A stretch of DNA of 64,000 bases from Candidatus Gracilibacteria bacterium (GCA_010119145.1 JAACSU010000007.1:1-64000); one strand, 5' to 3'. Positions 12,067 through 49,003 are shown, numbered from the stretch's first letter. Program-made: numbers and translations. The notes: generated by a model not told the origin, from the letters alone.

Positions 12067-12417
12067 ATGAAAATTCGATCATGAGACAACGTTGTTGTTA
12101 TATCAGGAACACGAAAAAATAAAGGAAAAACAGGAAAAGTATTAAAAGTTTTCCCAGTTACTGGAAAGGTAATCGTAGAATGAGTGAATATTGCAACAAA
12201 ACATATAAAAAAACAAGGAACTACAGCTGGGCAAATAATGAAAATGGAAAAAGCAATCGATGCTTCTAACGTTATGCTAGAATGTCCAATTACAAAAAAA
12301 CCTACAAGAGTAGGATACGTAATGATAGAAGAAAAAGGAGTTCAAAAAAAATTCAGATTTTCTAAAATAGCAGCAAAAACAAACAACAAAGATCCAAAAG
12401 ATTGTATTATTAAATAA
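12067..12417 (+). CDS. rplX: Ribosomal protein L24
   Basis: 116 residues: [48 protein letters not shown], the KOW motif typical of L24, then MEKAIDASNVMLECPITKKPTRVGY. It is one of the first proteins to bind 23S rRNA. The C-terminus (about 85-116, rich in Lys) resembles that of other L24 proteins. Confidence 0.96.
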
Positions 12418-12431
12418 TAACTTCCTGTCAG

Positions 12432-12971
12432 ATGACTTTAAAAGAAACATACACTAAAGAGATTGTTCCAAAATTAAAAGAATCTCTTAAATGCGAAAAT
12501 ATAATGGAGGTTCCAAAACTTGAAAAAGTTGTTCTTAATATGGGTATTGGTACATATATTAGAACTGGAAATAAAGACTACAGTGTTCTTCAAGAACATT
12601 TAGCTCTTATAGCTGGTCAAGCTCCTATTGTGAAACATGCTAAAAAAGCAATATCAAACTTTAAACTAAGAGCTGGAATGCCAGTTGGTTTAACAGTAAC
12701 ACTTCGAGGCGATGCAATGTACACTTTTCTTGATAAACTTATAAATGTAGTTTTACCAAGAGTACGTGATTTCCGTTGAGTAAGTCCAAAGTCGTTTGAT
12801 AAAGAGGGGAATTATAACTTTGGTATACGAGAACATACAATTTTTCCAGAAGTACCACAAGATGATGTTGTAAAAAACCACGGTATACAAATTACTGTAA
12901 AGACTACAGCTAAATCTAAAGAAGCTGGAAAAGAGCTTCTCTCACAAATGGGATTCCCATTTGCGAAGTAA
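12432..12971 (+). CDS. rplE: Ribosomal protein L5
   Basis: 179 residues. Motifs VPKLEKVVLNMGIG, GQAPIVKHAKKAISNFKLRAGMPVGLTVTLRG, LPRVRDFRGVS, YNFGIREHTIFPEV are all L5. L5 binds 5S rRNA and contacts P-site tRNA. The DFRG glycine is UGA. It starts 14 bases after L24. Confidence 0.97.
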
Positions 12972-12998
12972 TACAATACTTTTTTAAAAACAATACAA

Positions 12999-13223
12999 GT
13001 GGCTAGAAAATCAAAGATTGCAAAATCTCAAAAACTGAAAAAGAAATTCCTTCAAGCAATAGCTGATGGAAGAAAACCTACGAATGCTACAAAAGTATTT
13101 AATACTTGTAGTGTATGTGGGAGAACAAGAGGATACCTAGGTAACTTCGATTTATGTAGAATTTGTTTTAGAGAAAAAGCAAACGCAGGTGAACTTCCAG
13201 GAGTTCGAAAATCAAGTTGGTAA
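12999..13223 (+). CDS. rpsN: Ribosomal protein S14, zinc-binding type
   Basis: 74 residues starting at a GTG (12999-13001), [17 protein letters not shown]. Two Cys pairs, [11 protein letters not shown] and [22 protein letters not shown], form the zinc ribbon of the C+ type S14. It is longer at the N-terminus than the 61-residue type Z proteins. It assembles into the 30S head next to S3. GTG is the only sensible start. Confidence 0.95.
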
Positions 13224-13267
13224 AATAAATATAATACACACGTTTTAGTTTCATAATTATTGGTTAT

Positions 13268-13663
13268 ATGATAATGGATCCGATTGGAGATTTACTCACA
13301 AGAATAAGAAATGCATATCTTGCACGAAAAGAAGATATGACAGTACCATATTCTAAGATTAAACAAGACATCCTTAAAATCTTAAAGAAAAATAAATACA
13401 TAACTGACTACGAAGTAGTTGAGTTAGAATGAGCAAAAAAAGAGCTTCTTGTACATTTGAATAATGTCAGAAAAACTTTAGTTGTGCCAAATTTTAGAAG
13501 AATTTCTCGACCAGGTCAAAGAATTTACCTTGGATCAAAAGATATCAAAAAATCTAGAAATGGAAAAGGTATATATATAGTTTCTACTCCAAAAGGAGTC
13601 GTAACTGGATATGAAGCTCGAACTCTAAATGTTTGAGGAGAACTTCTTTGTGAAGTGTACTAA
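13268..13663 (+). CDS. rpsH: Ribosomal protein S8
   Basis: 131 residues. DPIGDLLTRIRNAYLARKEDMTVPYSKIKQDILKILKKNKYI is the S8 N-terminus; RRISRPGQRIYLGSKDIKKSRNGKGIYIVSTPKGVVTGYEARTLNVGGELLCEVY is the signature C-terminus. Two ATGs are possible (13268 or 13274); the second gives the usual M-D-P start. S8 organises the 16S central domain and represses the spc operon in E. coli. Confidence 0.96.
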
Positions 13664-37686: not shown

Positions 37687-37719
37687 AAAAAAACTCTCCC
37701 AATTGGGAGAGTTTTTTTA
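37687..37719. terminator. Bidirectional terminator
   Basis: Stem AAAAAACTCTCCC / GGGAGAGTTTTTT with loop AATT, between convergent proS (+) and thyA (-). The thyA stop codon lies at its edge. Confidence 0.92.
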
Positions 37720-38688
37720 AACTGCAACAGGAGCTTTTATTGCTGGGTGTGAGTTGTAATCAACAAGTTCGAAATCTTCCCATTCAAGATTTTCTAAGTC
37801 CTCAAGTGTTTCAAGTTTTTTATTGATTTTGAGTTTTGGAAGTGGAAGTGGATCACGAGAAAGTTGTTCATTTACTTGGTCGACATGATTATCATAAATA
37901 TGAGCATCTCAAAGTGTATGAACAAAAGTACCTGCTTTGAGACCTGTTATTTCTGCCACCATCATGAGGAGAGCTGAGTATGATGCAATATTAAAGGGTA
38001 CTCAGAGAAAAATATCAGCACTTCTTTGATAGAGTTGGAGATTAAGTAGATTGTTCGTTGTATCAACATTGAATTGATAAAATGCATGACATGGAGGCAA
38101 GAGCATATCCTCTTTTTGCGCTGGATTCCAAGCAGAAACTATGATTCGTCTGTCGGTTGGATTATTTTTAATCGTCTCAATCACATTTTTTAGTTGGTCT
38201 ACTCACGTATCTGCTGGGTCAATATTTCTAGATTTATAAGCGTGAGTATGTCATCCATTAAAGTTTCTCCATTGATGTCAATAAACTGGGCCGAGATCTC
38301 ACCATTTAACTACAAATGGATCATTTGCATCGAGAGATTCTATTTTTCAAATAAATACTTTTTTTTCATCAAGCCACGCTTCAGAGTATTTAGGATATTC
38401 TTCTGTGAGTTGATTTTTTTCAATATAGTTTTGAAAAGGCCATTCATCCCATATATGACAGTTTCTATCCACAAGATATTTAATATTTGTTTCTCCTCGT
38501 ATCAGCCATATAAGTTCTACGATGATAATTCTAAGAAATGTTTTTTTTGTTGTCACTAATGGAAATCAGTCTGCTAAATTATATTTAGCCTGCATACCGA
38601 AAACACTGGTCACTCAAGTACCTGTTCTATCATCTTTGTGAACTCAGTCCTTTTGTATTTCTCTCAGTAAGTCGAGATATTGTTTCAT
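37717..38688 (-). CDS. thyA: Thymidylate synthase
   Basis: 323 residues. [20 protein letters not shown], then after a longer small-domain insertion (about 85-145) [16 protein letters not shown], the catalytic [11 protein letters not shown] Cys, [25 protein letters not shown] and [12 protein letters not shown]. It converts dUMP to dTMP using methylene-THF. The insertion of about 45-50 residues after IWDEW is like that of Lactobacillus casei ThyA. First gene product of a dTMP set with a NUDIX enzyme and Tmk upstream on the same strand. Confidence 0.96.
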
Positions 38689-38708
38689 AGTGCTTATTTT
38701 ATTAGGAT

Positions 38709-39353
38709 TTACATATATTTTTCTAACTCTGGAGCGAGGAGCCGAGTCCAAGACTCAATATTATATTCAGGATTTTTAATCATTGTCATAAATTCCTCAA
38801 AACTTTTAAATGCTCCATGAGCCAGTTCTCCATCTTGCATACTTGGAACGAAGTTTTTTGTCTTAACGACATAAGCCATTCCTATATGTACTTTTCCTAC
38901 TTCATTACTATCATCATTAATATAACCAATTGGGAATATTTCACTTATATTTTCTTGTTTTAAATCTATTTCTTCTTCCAGTTCTCGAGTGAGACAATCA
39001 CGGATTGGATTTTCTAAATGTTCTTCTTCACGTTCTAAATGTCATCCAACTCAAATTGAAACTTTTTCGTGCAGTCTGGCATCTCAGGCAGCAGAGTTTT
39101 TATCTCCTCTCGTATATACAAAAATTTCATTTTTTTCATTGAGAACTATTGCGTAGGTGATAGGTTGTTTGTAATCAAAGTTTTGTTCTGCTTCTCCTCG
39201 AACCATAAATTCAAAATTTTCTAAAATTTGTGCCTCAAAATCAGCTTCATCTGAGCCATACACAAGAGTTTCTCTAGGATAATTTTTGAAGAGTGAAATA
39301 TTCGCTATTACCATCACTTCACGTTTCATTTTATCTTGTATAACTTGGTTCAT
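38709..39353 (-). CDS. NUDIX hydrolase
   Basis: 214 residues. The NUDIX box is at the middle: GVGGHLEREEEHLENPIRDCLTRELEEEIDL, with the REXXEE helix intact as RELEEE. The N-terminal about 85 residues (with FEAQILENFEFMVRGEAEQNFDYKQPITYAIV) form an extra lead domain before the Nudix fold. Substrate probably a nucleotide derivative; its place between thyA and tmk suggests pool cleaning, but this is inference. Its ATG follows the tmk stop with no gap. Confidence 0.85.
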
Positions 39354-40007
39354 TTACACTATTTTAGTAAGTATTTTTTTTGTAATTATTTCTTTGCTTA
39401 GTATATCTCCATTTTCACAACATTCAATTTTTTCCCATTCAGGAAATACATCAAATACTTCGTGAGCTGCATTATAGGCGTCTCTTAAATGATTTTCGTC
39501 TGCTTCATGGAGGTCTTTTGTTTTTCCGTCTTTAATATAGTCTCGTTTTTCTTTTGTCTCCACAAGTTTTTGACTGACTTCTGGTGGAACATCAAGAAAT
39601 AATACCTTGTCAGGTTTCGGAATTCAAAAAATATTATACTCTACATCAGCAAGCCAGTAGACGAAATCTTTGCGTTCTTGTGACGATGTAAGTTTTCAAG
39701 CCATATGCATCATAGATGCCGATACGTATCTATTAGAGATTATATAATCATAGTCTCACATGTTCTCTTTAAAATTAAAGCTATCATCAAATCTATCGAG
39801 TGCAAAAAATAAACTTGCAGCTTTTGCGCTGAGATTACTTCCATATCATCCGTTGAGATATTTCTCAACAAAATACGCAGAGTTTTCACCATACCTTGGA
39901 TAATCAAGCAGAAGAACTTTTTTACCCTGTTTCTCAAGTTCAGCTACTACTCGTTTCGTTTGCGTTCCTTTTCCAGATCCGTCAAGTCAGTCAATTACTA
40001 TGAACAT
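39354..40007 (-). CDS. tmk: Thymidylate kinase
   Basis: 217 residues. P-loop VIDGLDGSGKGTQTKR at the N-terminus, then LLLDYPRYGENSAYFVEKYLNGGYG, SLFFALDRFDDS, DYIISNRYVSASMMHMAGKL (the DRY-like substrate motif) and LFLDVPPEVSQKL. It phosphorylates dTMP to dTDP. Together with ThyA and the dCMP deaminase across the divergent gap it covers dUMP to dTDP. Confidence 0.94.
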
Positions 40008-40160
40008 AGAAGTATATTAAAATATATATTCTAGTATAAAAAAAATATACCTGCCATCAACTTGAAGTGTGTTTTGATGTTAAAAGATTGTGAAGAAAAA
40101 GATATATTTACATTATGGAGCTTTTAATTACAATACAATAAATATTTCTTACTAGTCAAT

Positions 40161-40601
40161 ATGTTACGTGATATAAATTTTCTCAACATTGCTTATGAAT
40201 TAGCGAGCGCTTCAAAATGTGTTTCTAGGAAAACGGGAGCAGTGATTGTGAGAGATGGGAGGATAGTCTCTACGTGATATAATGGGACTCCAGCATGATA
40301 TGTAAACTGTAGTGATTACTGGAATGGTGAATACACCAAAGAACATCATGAATGGTCATACAAATACGAAATACATGCTGAAATGAACGCGATAGTTTGG
40401 GCTGCCAGAGAATGAATTGCGGTTGAAGGGGCAACTATTTATTGTACCTACGAACCATGTTTTGATTGTACAAGAGCGATTATTGCAGCATGACTCAAAA
40501 AAATTGTGTTTACTGAAAAATATAAACATCATACTGGAAATGAAATCCAAGAGTTCGTAGAACAAAATGGAGCGACGATTACTCAGTTAGAACGAACATA
40601 A
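40161..40601 (+). CDS. dCMP deaminase-like zinc enzyme
   Basis: 146 residues. Zinc ligands appear as IHAEMNAIV and TYEPCFDCTRAI, the cytidine/deoxycytidylate deaminase pattern (HAE and PCxxC). VSRKTGAVIVRDGRIVSTGYNGTPAG is the N-terminal substrate part typical of dCMP deaminase. It supplies dUMP to ThyA. It is divergent from tmk with about 150 bases between. Confidence 0.93.
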
Positions 40602-43171: not shown

Positions 43172-46100
43172 ATGAAACAAATCCTACGCTTTATTACCCT
43201 GTGAATCTTACTTCTTTGAATCACTCAGCAAGCCTGATTGTGACAAGCTTTTGCTATAGAAGAAGACCAACCAGTGTATACAACGCTCAGATCAATTGAC
43301 CTGTGAACCTATAATGAGTACAGGTATAGAATAACAGAACAGTTCTTTAATTTAAGAGAACATTTTTTGGTAAACAATGAATTAAGTGTCCCAATAATGC
43401 AAAATATTGCAAAACTTGCAGATACTGCTTATAAATATCTTCCTGATAATCTTCAAAATCAAAATTATAAGCGAGAGCTGCTTATAGATATTCAAAAAGG
43501 AATCAAGGCTCCTAATAATGAAATTATTTACAATGAAATCATTGCTTCACTTGCTGATTATCTTGAAAAAGTAGAAATAAATGCTATTAATGGAACGATT
43601 GATGTATCTCCTAAGTCAGGAAATGCTCCACTTTCTACAACACTGAGAGCCAAAGTTGAGGATCCATCTGGAACACAAATTTCAAACTGAAACTATACCT
43701 GGTTTATTGATAATGCTGGAGAAAAAATAGTAATAGGTCGAGGTCCCTCTATCAACTATACCTTTAGAAATGAAGGGAAGTTTACAGTATTTCTAGATGT
43801 AGTTTCAACTCATAAAAATAGCTCAGGATTTACGGATGTTCTCCCATTTCGATCAAGAGCTGAAGTACTCGTAAATGAAAAAGTTGCGACCCTCGTTATC
43901 AAAGTAAATAGTAGTACGGTTACTGATAACAATGTACTTAAGTTCAATCCAGATACTGCCGATTATGGATTATTAATAGATGCCACAAGCTCACTTCCAA
44001 CAGCTGGAGCGAGGTTTTCAAAAACAGAGTGGGATTTTGGGAATGGAATTACCAAGAGTTACTCTGGAGGACCAAAAGTCGAACGTGTTCGATATGCTAC
44101 GCAAGGAGATTATGAGCTCTTTCTGCGTATGACAACCAATGAAGGAAAGGTTATTGAAAAATATTTTCTTATTGAGGTTCACGATCCAATAGCAAAAATA
44201 GAAGTGAATAGAGAGGATTGATTTATTGGAGATAGCTTCACCTTTGCAGCAAAATCAGGTGATAGATATAGAGATTTAACCTATAATTGGGAGATAACCA
44301 ATATTGATACTGATAAAGTAGTATTTCAAAATGCTGACAAACTCTTTACCTATAACTTCAAAGATAAAGGGAGATATAACGTAAGCCTGAGAGTTCGACA
44401 ATCCAGTGGAGAAATCGATCAAGATAATAGAGTAGTATATGTAACATCTCAAAGTCCTATTGCTGAGTTTGAAACAAATATACCTGCAAGTAATAAGCCT
44501 AATCGTGTCTATCTCGACGCGAGTAGAAGTTTTGATCCAGATATTTCAGATGATGGGAACCTAAAATATGATTGGTTTATCGATGGAAACAAGGTAATAC
44601 TTGAGGATTCAGTTGCCAACGGTTCGATTGGATATTATGTATTTGATAGTGTGGGAAATCATTCTATAAATCTAGAAGTCACAGATTTAGATGGAATCAC
44701 ATCTACAAAAAAATGAACCATTGATATCAAATCAATTCTCTCTGTAGATTTTTACGCATTTCCACGAGTTATACCGAGAAATGGATTTATTAAATTTATA
44801 GCAGAATCACCAGAGGCTCAAATATTTGAGTGGAATTTTGGTGATGGAAAATCACAGGGTGGAACACTTGATAATGTCACACATACCTACGAAAAAAGTG
44901 GGAGCTTTGATGTCACACTCAAAGTTTCAGATAAAAATAATATGACAAATACTTTCAAACGAACGGTCTATGTCAGTGACTCAGATGAGCCATATTCAAT
45001 TCTCGATGTAAAATACGATACGAACTCTCAACCAGAATATGAAGCTGATGCTTGTGGCTGAGATGGAGCATATGTCATTAATAGAGTACAAAATGTTCTC
45101 TTTGACGCGAGTGAATCTATTAACATTGATGGACAAACGACGTGACTCGAGTATTCATGGAAGATTGGACAGACAACCTATTCTACTTCTCAAACCGTCA
45201 CTCAGAGATTCGACGAAATCTGATGTTTTCCTGTAAAACTCACAGTAAAGAGCAAGGCTAATGCAGCCAGTCATAGTTCAAGTACGATGGTAGAAGTGAG
45301 AAATGTACTCCCGACTCTTACGTCACTGGGGATACAAATTGAAAATCCAGAAGCAGATCCGCTCGTTATTCGAGTCAATGCAAATGGTGCGACTGATCCA
45401 GATGGAGTAATCCAATCATATCTTTGGTATTATTATACAGATATAGATAATAGTCCTCAAGATTTTAGATCTACCATTTCAGCATCTACGACTTTTGTTA
45501 TACCTAAGGTTACCTGAAATTATTATTTTATGGCCATCCTCAAGGATAATAATGAAGCAAGAATCACATCAGAAGAAATCACAGGATCACGATATTTCAC
45601 AACTATTACTGGTGACAATATAAACACTCCTATCATCGAACTCAGTGTAAATGACAACTCAACTATTATAGGTGAAGAAGTGACATTCAAAGCAAAAGTA
45701 AGCAATATACTAGGTCAAGATATTTCTAAAAACTCAGAATATAGTTGGGACTTTGACGGTGATGGATTTTATGATACTCAAACAAAGGAACCAATAGTTA
45801 ATTATAGTTATAAAAAATCAGGAGAGTTTTACGCAAAAGTAAAAGTAAAACATAAAGGGATCTCGAGTACGAGAAACGTCACAATGAACGTGAGTAATAA
45901 ACTGGTAGCAGATTTTCAGTACATATCTATTTGAAATAAATTTATATTTTTTGATAGCTCACTTGGTCAAATAGAGGATAGACAATGGGAACTATGAGAT
46001 GGAACGAAAAAAACGGGAACATCATTTGAGTATACGTATACAGACAAAGCATCTACTCATAGCGTTACTCTAAAAGTTTCTGAGGGTACAGTCGTGAAGG

Positions 46101-48223
46101 AAGTGACAAAAGACGTTTCTAAAAACTTTAGAAATGTTCTCAAGAGTCGTGGAAATGGCCTGGTTGTATTTACTACTCCAGAGCTTGATAAAAATGACAC
46201 GATTACTCTGAAAGATCAATCAGAAAAAGTATTTATCTACCTTGGTGAGAGTACTCCAGATGCTGTAAACTACATTATTGATTATGATATAGAACAAGAC
46301 AGTGATCTCAATGGTGGTGCTGATGATGATGAAAACAACAAGGGGACTTCGAGTTATGTTTCTGGTTCAGTAGTAGAAATACCAATGAGCCCATACAAAA
46401 CACAAGTTGTTCGAGCATATATTACTGATGAAAGTGGTGCAATCCTAGGATCGCAAGATATCACGATTATTAAAGAATATATCGAAGAGCAAAACATTGA
46501 TCCAGATATGATTATCTTCGAAGATGTCACTGAATCAGAAAAGGAAAAAATAGAATCTCTCAAAGAGCTTCTCATGGTTCTTCCGCAACAACAGAGATTA
46601 AAATCACTGAGTTATATTCAAAAACTTCAAGAAAATTGGAACGACAGTACAGAAAAAACTCGAACAATTCTAGATTTTGAGGATTATATATTTGAATTAA
46701 ATCTTCCAAATGAAAATGAGATTATAACATTACTCGAATCTCTGCTCGTAGAGGGACAGGATGACCAGAGTAACAATCAGATTACCTATCAAGCACTCGT
46801 AAATCTTATACCAAAAGAAATAGTGTGTCCTACAGAATCATGAACCTGTTATGAAAGTCTCATAGCTAAACTGGATGCTATTAAAGCTTCGAGTGATGTA
46901 GAAGCAAATAAAATAATGTGAAGCGAAATACTTGATGTTATCGGGACGAGCGACCTACTTTCTAATGAACAAAAGCTCGATTTCAAAGCGGTACTTGCTA
47001 TGCTTGTGTACGGTGATATCGGGGAGATTCCTGATTCTGAAAAACAAGAAATTATCGATCAAACACCAACAGGAGAGAGTTCAAGTTCGTGAGTTCTATG
47101 AGTTTTGCTTACGATACTCAAAGTTATAGGATATATTATACTCGTATTTATAGTACTGGTTCTCTGAATATTTATATTTTACAAAATATTTAATAAAGAC
47201 AAGAGTTTAAGTTTCTCTTGATATGTTACAAAAATAACATCAGGAGGTTCTAAAAAATCTTGAAATATTACATCTAGTGAAGAGCGTGATGATATTCTAT
47301 CAGAACTCCTATGAGATTCATCTCAATCTGATGAAACAAAATCTGATGTATTTTCAAATAAAAAAGAAGATCCTCTTGCTGATACAAAACAAGAGAGCAA
47401 AGCAAGCCCGAAAAAAGAAACAAAAGAATCTACTGATACACCAAAAACTCCACCAGTGCAAAAAACAGCTGAAGAAGAACAGGTCCCAGATTGGCTGAAA
47501 TGAAGTTTTACTGCAACAGATACTTCTCCATCAAAACAATCCACAACACCAAAGAAACCAGAACAATCAGGTGTTACAGCTCCTCAATCTCAAGCAAAAA
47601 CTGATACAAATACTCAGACTCTTAGTCCTAAAGAGTCAAAGCAAAATAATGCTTTGACTGCAGACTCATTTGATATAGAGAAAGAGACAAAATTAGAGAG
47701 TAATACACAAGTACCAGATTGGTTGAAAGGAAGTTTTGATACTGAAGAGAGCTCAGATACTCAAACTGATTCCAAAAAAACTGACACGAAAAAATCATCA
47801 GTTTCTGATACTAAAAATGATGGTATACTTGAACGTAAGCTCAAATGAGAAGTCTCTCATAATGTTTCGAGTGATTCAGTCTCTAAAAATATAGAAGACG
47901 ATGCTCCATCAAAAAATGCTGAACCGGAGCCAACAATATCTACATTAGAATCTGATGTATCGGTGCCAGATTGGTTGAAATCAAGCTTTGATACAAACGA
48001 AGATGTGATAGATGATACAAAGACTATCGAAGCTAAAGCAGAACAAGCACTAAAAAAGACTCCTAAAAAGTCAGAAACTCCTAAAAAGACGGATACTCCT
48101 ATAAAAAAGTCTGACGGAGCACCAAAAGATACTAGTTCAAAAGATGATACTCAAAAGTCAGAAGAGCTATGGGATGACGGAATGAAAATACCAGATTGGC
48201 TCAAGTCAGATGACTCAAAATAG
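43172..48223 (+). CDS. Giant PKD-repeat surface protein with PDWLK-repeat cytoplasmic tail
   Basis: 1683 residues, the largest gene here, broken by many UGA codons. Signal peptide MKQILRFITLGILLLGITQQAGLGQAFA fixes the start. The ectodomain (about 30-1305) holds repeated Ig-like PKD units, seen as EWDFGNG, EWNFGDGKS, YSWDFDGDGF and YKKSGEFYAKVKVKH-type strands, with two Cys pairs. One membrane helix (about 1308-1338, LTILKVIGYIILVFIVLVLGIFIFY) leads to a 345-residue, Ser/Thr/Lys/Asp-rich tail. Four copies of (V/I)PDWLK(G/S)S lie at 47483, 47711, 47963 and 48188, the last at the C-terminus. Likely adhesion or host contact; unproven. Confidence 0.85.
47483..48208 (+). repeat. Four PDWLK motif repeats in the tail of the PKD protein
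   Basis: Motif starts at 47483 (VPDWLKGSFT), 47711 (VPDWLKGSFD), 47963 (VPDWLKSSFD) and 48188 (IPDWLKSDD). Distances are 76, 84 and 75 codons. The linkers are low-complexity Lys/Ser/Thr/Asp stretches, so only the motif is conserved, which suggests a short binding motif rather than a folded repeat. Confidence 0.85.
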
Positions 48224-48226
48224 TTT

Positions 48227-48261
48227 AAAAATACTCTCTGAAATATGAGAGTATTTTTTTT
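48227..48261 (+). terminator. Terminator of the PKD gene
   Basis: Stem AAAATACTCTC / GAGAGTATTTT with loop of about eight bases and a T8 run, starting four bases after the stop. Confidence 0.9.
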
Positions 48262-48270
48262 GATATCTTT

Positions 48271-48297
48271 TTGATATTTCCTACTTGCCCCTATAAT
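48271..48297 (+). promoter_or_regulatory. Promoter of lepB-truB
   Basis: TATAAT at 48292-48297 with TTGATA about 15 bases upstream (48271-48276), just after the PKD gene terminator. Spacing is short by one or two bases, so the -35 call is tentative. Confidence 0.5.
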
Positions 48298-48328
48298 AGG
48301 GGTCATATTATACCTTGACCACACTCCT

Positions 48329-49003
48329 GTGACTCAATTTAAAAACGAAGCACTCGATTTCCTCAAAGATATTATTATTATACTCGTTATAGTACTTTTT
48401 ATCAGGAGCTTTTTAGTCATGCCATTTCAGATAAATGGGCAGTCTATGTACGAAACATATTATGATAAAGAGTTTATTATTGTAGATAGACTTTCATATC
48501 TAGATATTCCACTTCTCTGACAAGCAAGACAAGTTGAAAGATGAGACGTGGTTATATTTACTCCAGAAGTAAGTGAAGACCGTAAATACTTTATTAAACG
48601 TGTTATTGGACTTCCTGGAGAGACTCTCAAAATTGAGAACGGAAGAGTGTATCTCTTAAATCAGGTTTCTAATGAATTTGATGAAATAAATGAGGGAGCA
48701 TATCTTTCAGAAGAAAATAATAAAGATACAACTGTGAGATGAGATAGATGAGAATACATCTACGAAGTTCCAGATGGTCAATATTTTGTTATGGGAGATA
48801 ACAGAAATCACTCAACTGACGGACGTACGTGTTTTCAAAGTTGTTCCATTGGTGAAAACTACATCACTCCCAAAAAAATAACTGGAAGAGTGCTTTTAGA
48901 TCTAGGATATTTTAACTTCAGCAGTTTCTCATTTACGCAACCTGATCTTTGAATTGATACTCATCCAAGATTTTTTGATAACTGATGAACTCACAAATAT
49001 TAA
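48329..49003 (+). CDS. lepB: Signal peptidase I
   Basis: 224 residues from a GTG start. One N-terminal membrane helix (IIIILVIVLFIRSFLVMPF), then the catalytic Ser box NGQSMYET, the Lys box YFIKRVIGLPGE and GDNRNHSTDGR. It cleaves signal peptides of exported proteins, many of which are encoded here. No ATG is in frame upstream, so GTG is accepted. Its stop overlaps the truB start by one base (TAATG). Confidence 0.95.

Follow-up and report, generated by a model that had tools for sequence, protein, structure and literature searches.

The window, a 64,000-nucleotide stretch of DNA from an ultra-small Candidatus Gracilibacteria bacterium (GCA_010119145.1, JAACSU010000007.1:1-64000), carries the gene for a giant PKD protein, which we interpret with moderate confidence as a core envelope protein whose cytoplasmic tail clusters and anchors extracellular stalks by multivalent docking to a putative cytoplasmic partner. 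The architecture of the protein, its near-universality, the repetition and constraint of its tail motif, and its relatives are established by sequence or prediction. Many CPR bacteria live on other cells via their surface, and the connection between surface and interior in CPR is the gap addressed here.

Predicted architecture of the PKD protein

The initial annotation described a 1683-residue ORF, and this frame was open throughout when read with NCBI table 25; with table 11, it fell into short pieces. The ORF and its features up to the membrane are as follows.

43172-48223, + strand: whole ORF, 1683 aa, stop included (code 25; 24 in-frame TGA codons read as Gly)
43172-43255, + strand: signal peptide, residues 1-28, MKQILRFITLGILLLGITQQAGLGQAFA (from sequence)
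43310-43567, + strand: N-terminal four-helix bundle, not PKD, residues 47-132 (AF2, pLDDT approximately 92-95)
43589-46474, + strand: approximately 10 PKD/Ig-like beta sandwiches, residues 140-1101 (Pfam PKD_4/PKD, AF2, Foldseek)
46532-47059, + strand: membrane-proximal helical domain, residues 1121-1296 (AF2, nine helices)
47096-47191, + strand: single transmembrane helix, residues 1309-1340 (hydropathy, AF2 helix)

The signal peptide that had been claimed was found, with an AxA-type cleavage site. Its mean conservation among orthologues was poor (0.31); signal peptide sequences are poorly conserved in general. Many PKD-type Ig units had also been proposed, and the Pfam search bore this out: PKD_4 (PF18911; E = 5e-45, 151.9 bits against a cut-off of 27) and PKD (PF00801; E = 3.5e-42, 142.7 bits against a cut-off of 23.5) each matched seven stretches. 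AF2 models, built from 36 orthologues for two spans (residues 27-800 and 705-1345), contained beta-sandwich folds, with mean pLDDT values of 85.9 and 82.4, respectively. Their pTM values (0.39 and 0.45) were as low as a string of domains would be expected to give, and the overall shape of the stalk is therefore not fixed by these models. An aspartate-rich loop in the last PKD/Ig sandwich (DYDIEQDSDLNGGADDDENN) looks calcium-binding. The N-terminal helical bundle, the membrane-proximal helical domain, and the repeated PDWLK motif of the tail were absent from the initial annotation; the membrane-proximal domain had no family match in Pfam or NCBIfam.

The one C-terminal membrane helix was recovered both in the hydropathy profile (peak 3.24) and in the AF2 model, with lysines directly inside and an uncharged SSSSG segment outside. 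By all predicted features, the PKD protein is a single-span membrane protein with a cytoplasmic C-terminus. The initial annotation had named two outcomes as counterevidence, namely a C-terminal segment that is not a transmembrane helix and structure models lacking PKD folds; the segment is a hydrophobic helix by both approaches, and the models contain approximately 10 beta sandwiches (mean pLDDT 86 and 82). Along with the architecture, a physical connection between surface and interior is supported at the level of prediction.

The cytoplasmic tail and its repeated motif

The tail comprises the following features.

47192-48220, + strand: disordered cytoplasmic tail, residues 1341-1683, 343 aa (D+E 21%, K+R 15%, P+S+T 33%)
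47192-47239, + strand: juxtamembrane box NKDKSLSFSGYVTKIT (family consensus NKDKxxGFxDFIxxKTSG)
47483-47509, + strand: motif 1, VPDWLKGSF, residues 1438-1446 (sequence)
47711-47737, + strand: motif 2, VPDWLKGSF, residues 1514-1522 (sequence)
47963-47989, + strand: motif 3, VPDWLKSSF, residues 1598-1606 (sequence)
48164-48205, + strand: C-terminal box ELWDDGMKIPDWLK, residues 1665-1678, containing motif 4 (orthologue alignment)

A long tail was correctly annotated, and its length was counted as 343 rather than 345 residues. Its description as "signalling-like" did not hold: no signaling or catalytic domain, or any other recognizable domain, was matched in Pfam or NCBIfam, and a signaling-receptor tail was rejected on that ground. 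The tail is instead of low complexity, charged, rich in Pro, Ser, and Thr, and built around a repeated linear motif.

The consensus of this motif is the nine-residue [IV]PDWLKGSF, and that of the C-terminal box is ELWDDGM-x-[IV]PDWLK. Over 34 complete orthologue tails, 168 PxW[LM] motifs were counted, compared with 0.55 expected after shuffling each tail (maximum 4 in 300 shuffles). The spacing between copies ranged from 20 to 205 residues, and 195 of the 209 tail tryptophans lay within the motif or the ELWDDGM box. In 23 aligned orthologues, conservation was 0.88 in the motif columns versus 0.21 in the spacers, part of this contrast arising because MAFFT aligns the motifs to each other and so inflates the motif columns. 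The motif counts and the C-terminal box are independent of this effect, and in the box L1666, W1667, D1669, G1670, M1671, P1674, D1675, W1676, and L1677 were invariant across the 23 orthologues. The juxtamembrane box was common to the aligned orthologues as well.

The four tail sites were the only places in the source genome with a PDWLK-coding pattern. Family-wide, PDWLK/PDWFK matches fell mostly in the PKD gene, among the matches listed; nine on other contigs were examined. Some lay in unrelated enzymes, among them an aminotransferase-like protein, some were short or out of frame, and others belonged to this very tail, placed on a different contig.

The tail might be compositionally biased filler in which motifs were spread by tandem duplication without any binding function, as the expansion and contraction of the repeats between species (3-8 copies) and the recent near-identical repeats in some tails (e.g., L014 and L182) would suggest. 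However, the spacers differ wholly between orthologues while the motif residues are retained, the C-terminal box is invariant, and other families and apparently unrelated proteins have the motif too, which leaves this explanation highly improbable.

Judged from these sequence patterns, the tail motif probably docks the surface protein to a protein inside the cell. In the model of multivalent docking that we favor, the conserved stalk outside the cell would consist of the helical cap, approximately 10 PKD/Ig sandwiches, and the membrane-proximal helical domain. Inside, the disordered tail would present three to eight copies of [IV]PDWLKGSF (the range over the 34 tails), the C-terminal ELWDDGM-x-[IV]PDWLK box, and the juxtamembrane GFxDFI box. 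We infer that each motif would bind, with low affinity, one conserved protein located in the cytoplasm or at the membrane, and that repetition of the motif would give avidity, so that the tail would cluster the stalks and anchor them to an internal structure.

Distribution, rate of change, and relatives

The search of other Gracilibacteria genomes that had been proposed for this architecture found an orthologue in all 48 genomes of the source family, spanning 20 genera, which speaks against a chance occurrence. Outside the source genome, identity was 35-75%; each of the 48 genomes had one full-length copy, the extras being gene pieces and small PKD matches, and the ectodomain length was near-fixed across the 20 genera. 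A scan of genome contigs yielded 53 loci, and relatives in named genomes were nearly all labeled Candidatus Gracilibacteria or Patescibacteria. A contig labeled Saprospiraceae (JALZVK010000217.1, L175) encodes a clear Gracilibacteria-type PKD protein in code 25 and is probably mis-binned. With a full-length profile, related PKD proteins were detected in 22 of 380 phylum genomes, 20 of the 22 (the source genome included) belonging to the same class.

Between the source genome and five others, ectodomain identity was 44-68%. The same five pairs gave 44-64% for TruB, 45-63% for LepB, and 33-43% for the tail, and four of them gave 71-87% for FtsZ; pairwise identity is a coarse measure of rate. As ectodomain identity was close to that of TruB and LepB, the stalk changes like ordinary cellular proteins, and it does not look to be under diversifying selection.

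These values bear on the view of the initial annotation that the protein is a host-contact adhesin or receptor, in which the stalk would attach to a host cell, with the tail relaying or bracing that contact. A PKD/Ig stalk with a membrane anchor and a cytoplasmic tail would suit this role, and in related predators and parasites, large PKD proteins and type IV secretion system (T4SS) pilins are proposed for adhesion: giant PKD membrane proteins in Vampirococcus lugosii (PMC8080830), and PKD, Ig, and T4SS-pilin proteins in methanogen parasites (PMC10936435), were put forward for host contact. The fast or diversifying ectodomain evolution expected of a host-specific adhesin was not found (44-68% against 44-64% and 45-63% for TruB and LepB), and the gene is single copy with a near-fixed ectodomain length. 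Also in favor of host contact, the grappling hook protein GhpA of Aureispira (PDB 9fly, 9flp, and 9flw) is among the best Foldseek matches to the sandwich array; it is an extracellular beta-sandwich array several times longer than the window protein (residues up to 5009 in 9fly). Kinship with GhpA was rejected, since its low Foldseek E-values came with TM-scores of approximately 0.15 and 10-14% identity, and any array of beta sandwiches scores in this way, reflecting a common fold only. We regard the host-contact reading as rather unlikely; near-fixed length together with a TruB/LepB-like rate fits better with a core envelope role than with a host-range adhesin, as far as identity values can indicate.

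The PKD surface proteins of CPR/Patescibacteria share with the window protein the PKD/Ig ectodomain, the membrane location, the large size, and the phylum. The window protein differs from those reported in its helical cap, membrane-proximal helical domain, motif-bearing tail, near-universal presence in the family, and housekeeping-like rate, and the available portions of PMC8080830 and PMC10936435 make no mention of a repeated cytoplasmic motif in their accounts of PKD proteins.

The gene immediately downstream in the window was named by eye from its sequence.

48245-49003, + strand: signal peptidase I (lepB-like)

The order PKD-lepB-truB was found in g1, g8, g13, g16, and g18 and not in g6, g12, and g20; throughout the source family, the PKD gene adjoined lepB/truB or other housekeeping genes. 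Also near the PKD gene in the window is a nucleotide-metabolism cluster (37717-40601) with ORFs that by eye resemble thymidylate synthase, dTMP kinase, and dCMP deaminase. In G035, several large prepilin-like proteins lie on the flanks of the PKD gene (L103:1240-5809 and 12089-13648).

The relatives outside the family have other companions. In G408 (family f11, standard code), genes in a row encode a T4SS_pilin protein of 138 aa, a 1366-aa protein in which PKD domains come after a T4SS_pilin segment, and a protein of 736 aa. The last has a signal peptide, PKD domains, and one transmembrane helix, ends in VPDWLKGV, and shows homology to the window protein over residues 951-1103 of the latter (E = 4e-11). 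A 2038-aa PKD protein in G416 (family f12, standard code) ends in IPDWLKG and matches residues 139-930 of the window protein (E = 5e-67, 876 aligned columns). Three f6 genomes encode a signal-peptide/PKD/one-TM protein bearing two or three PxWL motifs, next to a T4SS_pilin-like gene. Two families outside the class encode signal-peptide/Ig/one-TM proteins with one IPDWLK each in the tail, the next gene at the one such locus scanned being a solute-binding protein. Across these seven tails, 13 of 14 tryptophans lay in the motif, with 0.11 motifs expected after shuffling; because the genomes were picked by motif match, this shows the concentration of tryptophan and the extra f6 copies, not an unbiased frequency. 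The motif-bearing Ig proteins elsewhere in the phylum are apparently unrelated to the window protein, and the motif in the families outside the class could have an independent origin.

A further explanation would make the PKD stalk the outer portion of a machine of the type IV secretion or pilus-like kind, with the tail recruiting a cytoplasmic ATPase or a related subunit. T4SS_pilin (PF18895) units are neighbors of, or N-terminally fused to, the relatives in f6 and f11, other families of the class, and there are 15 PF18895 matches elsewhere in the source genome (G000). One set of these, on contig C8 (L204:3267-8497, +), comprises three multi-helix proteins of PF18895 units that follow a VirD4/TraG-like protein, and on sequence grounds we take it as a putative type IV secretion-like cluster. 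Contig C9 (L202:6655-9420, -) encodes a protein of 922 aa that has three membrane helices in its center and PKD domains at its C-terminus; this protein is an unlinked homologue (E = 2e-29) of a three-helix PKD protein that in G408 adjoins the giant PKD gene. Its N-terminal residues 86-185 are T2SSE-like, although this match (E = 6e-4) is below the curated cut-off, and the ComGA and GspE models also matched weakly. At the PKD locus of the source family, however, the neighbors are housekeeping genes, and neither machine genes nor a PF18895 neighbor was found there. A part in such a machine is judged unlikely.

In f11 the parts are separate, and the window gene resembles a fusion of them in which the motif was multiplied. 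The window protein lacks a T4SS_pilin part and has a signal peptide in its place. This arrangement suggests membership of an ancestral surface apparatus and later fusion in the source family: besides this protein, the apparatus would have included two-helix proteins resembling type IV secretion pilins and another PKD protein, with three helices, and in the source family its parts would have been fused into one gene. A link to a PamR/RbmA-like CPR pilus, prompted by a weak NCBIfam match, was dropped after a literature search for it found nothing.

Candidate partners of the tail

The tail motif resembles the C-terminal peptide of FtsZ, which is likewise a short linear motif, sits on a disordered linker, and serves as a binding hub (PMC12607630). 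The two share the order aliphatic, Pro, any residue, aromatic, aliphatic, basic, with the same spacing, and the FtsZ C-terminus reads D[IV]P[STA]FLRKK in the source family and [IVT]PAF[ILM]R in the class. The motif might therefore mimic this peptide and bind FtsA or another receptor of the FtsZ tail, placing the stalk at the division site or titrating FtsA, which all 13 genomes tested encode. SepF was rejected as the tail receptor, being absent from the same number (13 of 13 tested). The pattern is alike but the residues differ: [IV]PDWLK does not conform to the FtsZ consensus [IV]P[STA]FLR, in that the tail motif always has Trp and mostly Asp, whereas the FtsZ peptides have Phe, with Ala, Ser, or Thr in place of Asp, and no Asp-Trp in any sequence examined. 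The FtsZ peptide is followed by basic residues and the tail motif by Gly-Ser or acidic residues, and the tail motif occurs in many copies on a membrane protein. The likeness was noticed post hoc, after the motif had been seen, and in most class members FtsA and FtsZ occur without the exact motif. Docking to the divisome is distinctly unlikely.

The exact motif pattern was present in only 19 of 380 phylum genomes, several of these by chance. Many class genomes are without it, and variants such as PSWL, PPWL, and PPWM occur; any partner must therefore do without the motif in those genomes or accept variants. A broader proposal, which we consider quite unlikely, is that [IV]PDWLKG is a hitherto undescribed, CPR-wide docking code that single-span surface proteins carry on their cytoplasmic tails, read by one conserved inner protein (possibly FtsA, the motif mimicking the FtsZ peptide) that couples the surface array to division or polarity.

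The docking, host-contact, and secretion-machine readings are compatible with one another, since a stalk that is docked inside might in addition contact a host or work for a secretion machine. Should a single cytoplasmic partner bind the motif class-wide, it would form a shared link between the inside and the outside in a large uncultured group, and a short conserved peptide recurring in many tails offers a direct experimental handle on it. The ectodomain would provide a stable, family-wide surface marker for the immunolabeling or capture of uncultured Gracilibacteria.

A text search of the literature for PDWL returned unrelated strings only, among the matches listed, and a repeated tail motif was not described in the Gracilibacteria surface-protein literature searched by term, a set with few subscription papers or preprints. 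Repeated motifs of the PDWL type may also occur in Chloroflexota proteins, a possibility given no weight here. On contig C12 of the source genome (1911-3035), a second FtsA match lies in a TGA-free frame, unlike the ftsA beside ftsZ; this contig is possibly a contaminant (assembly contamination 1.8%).
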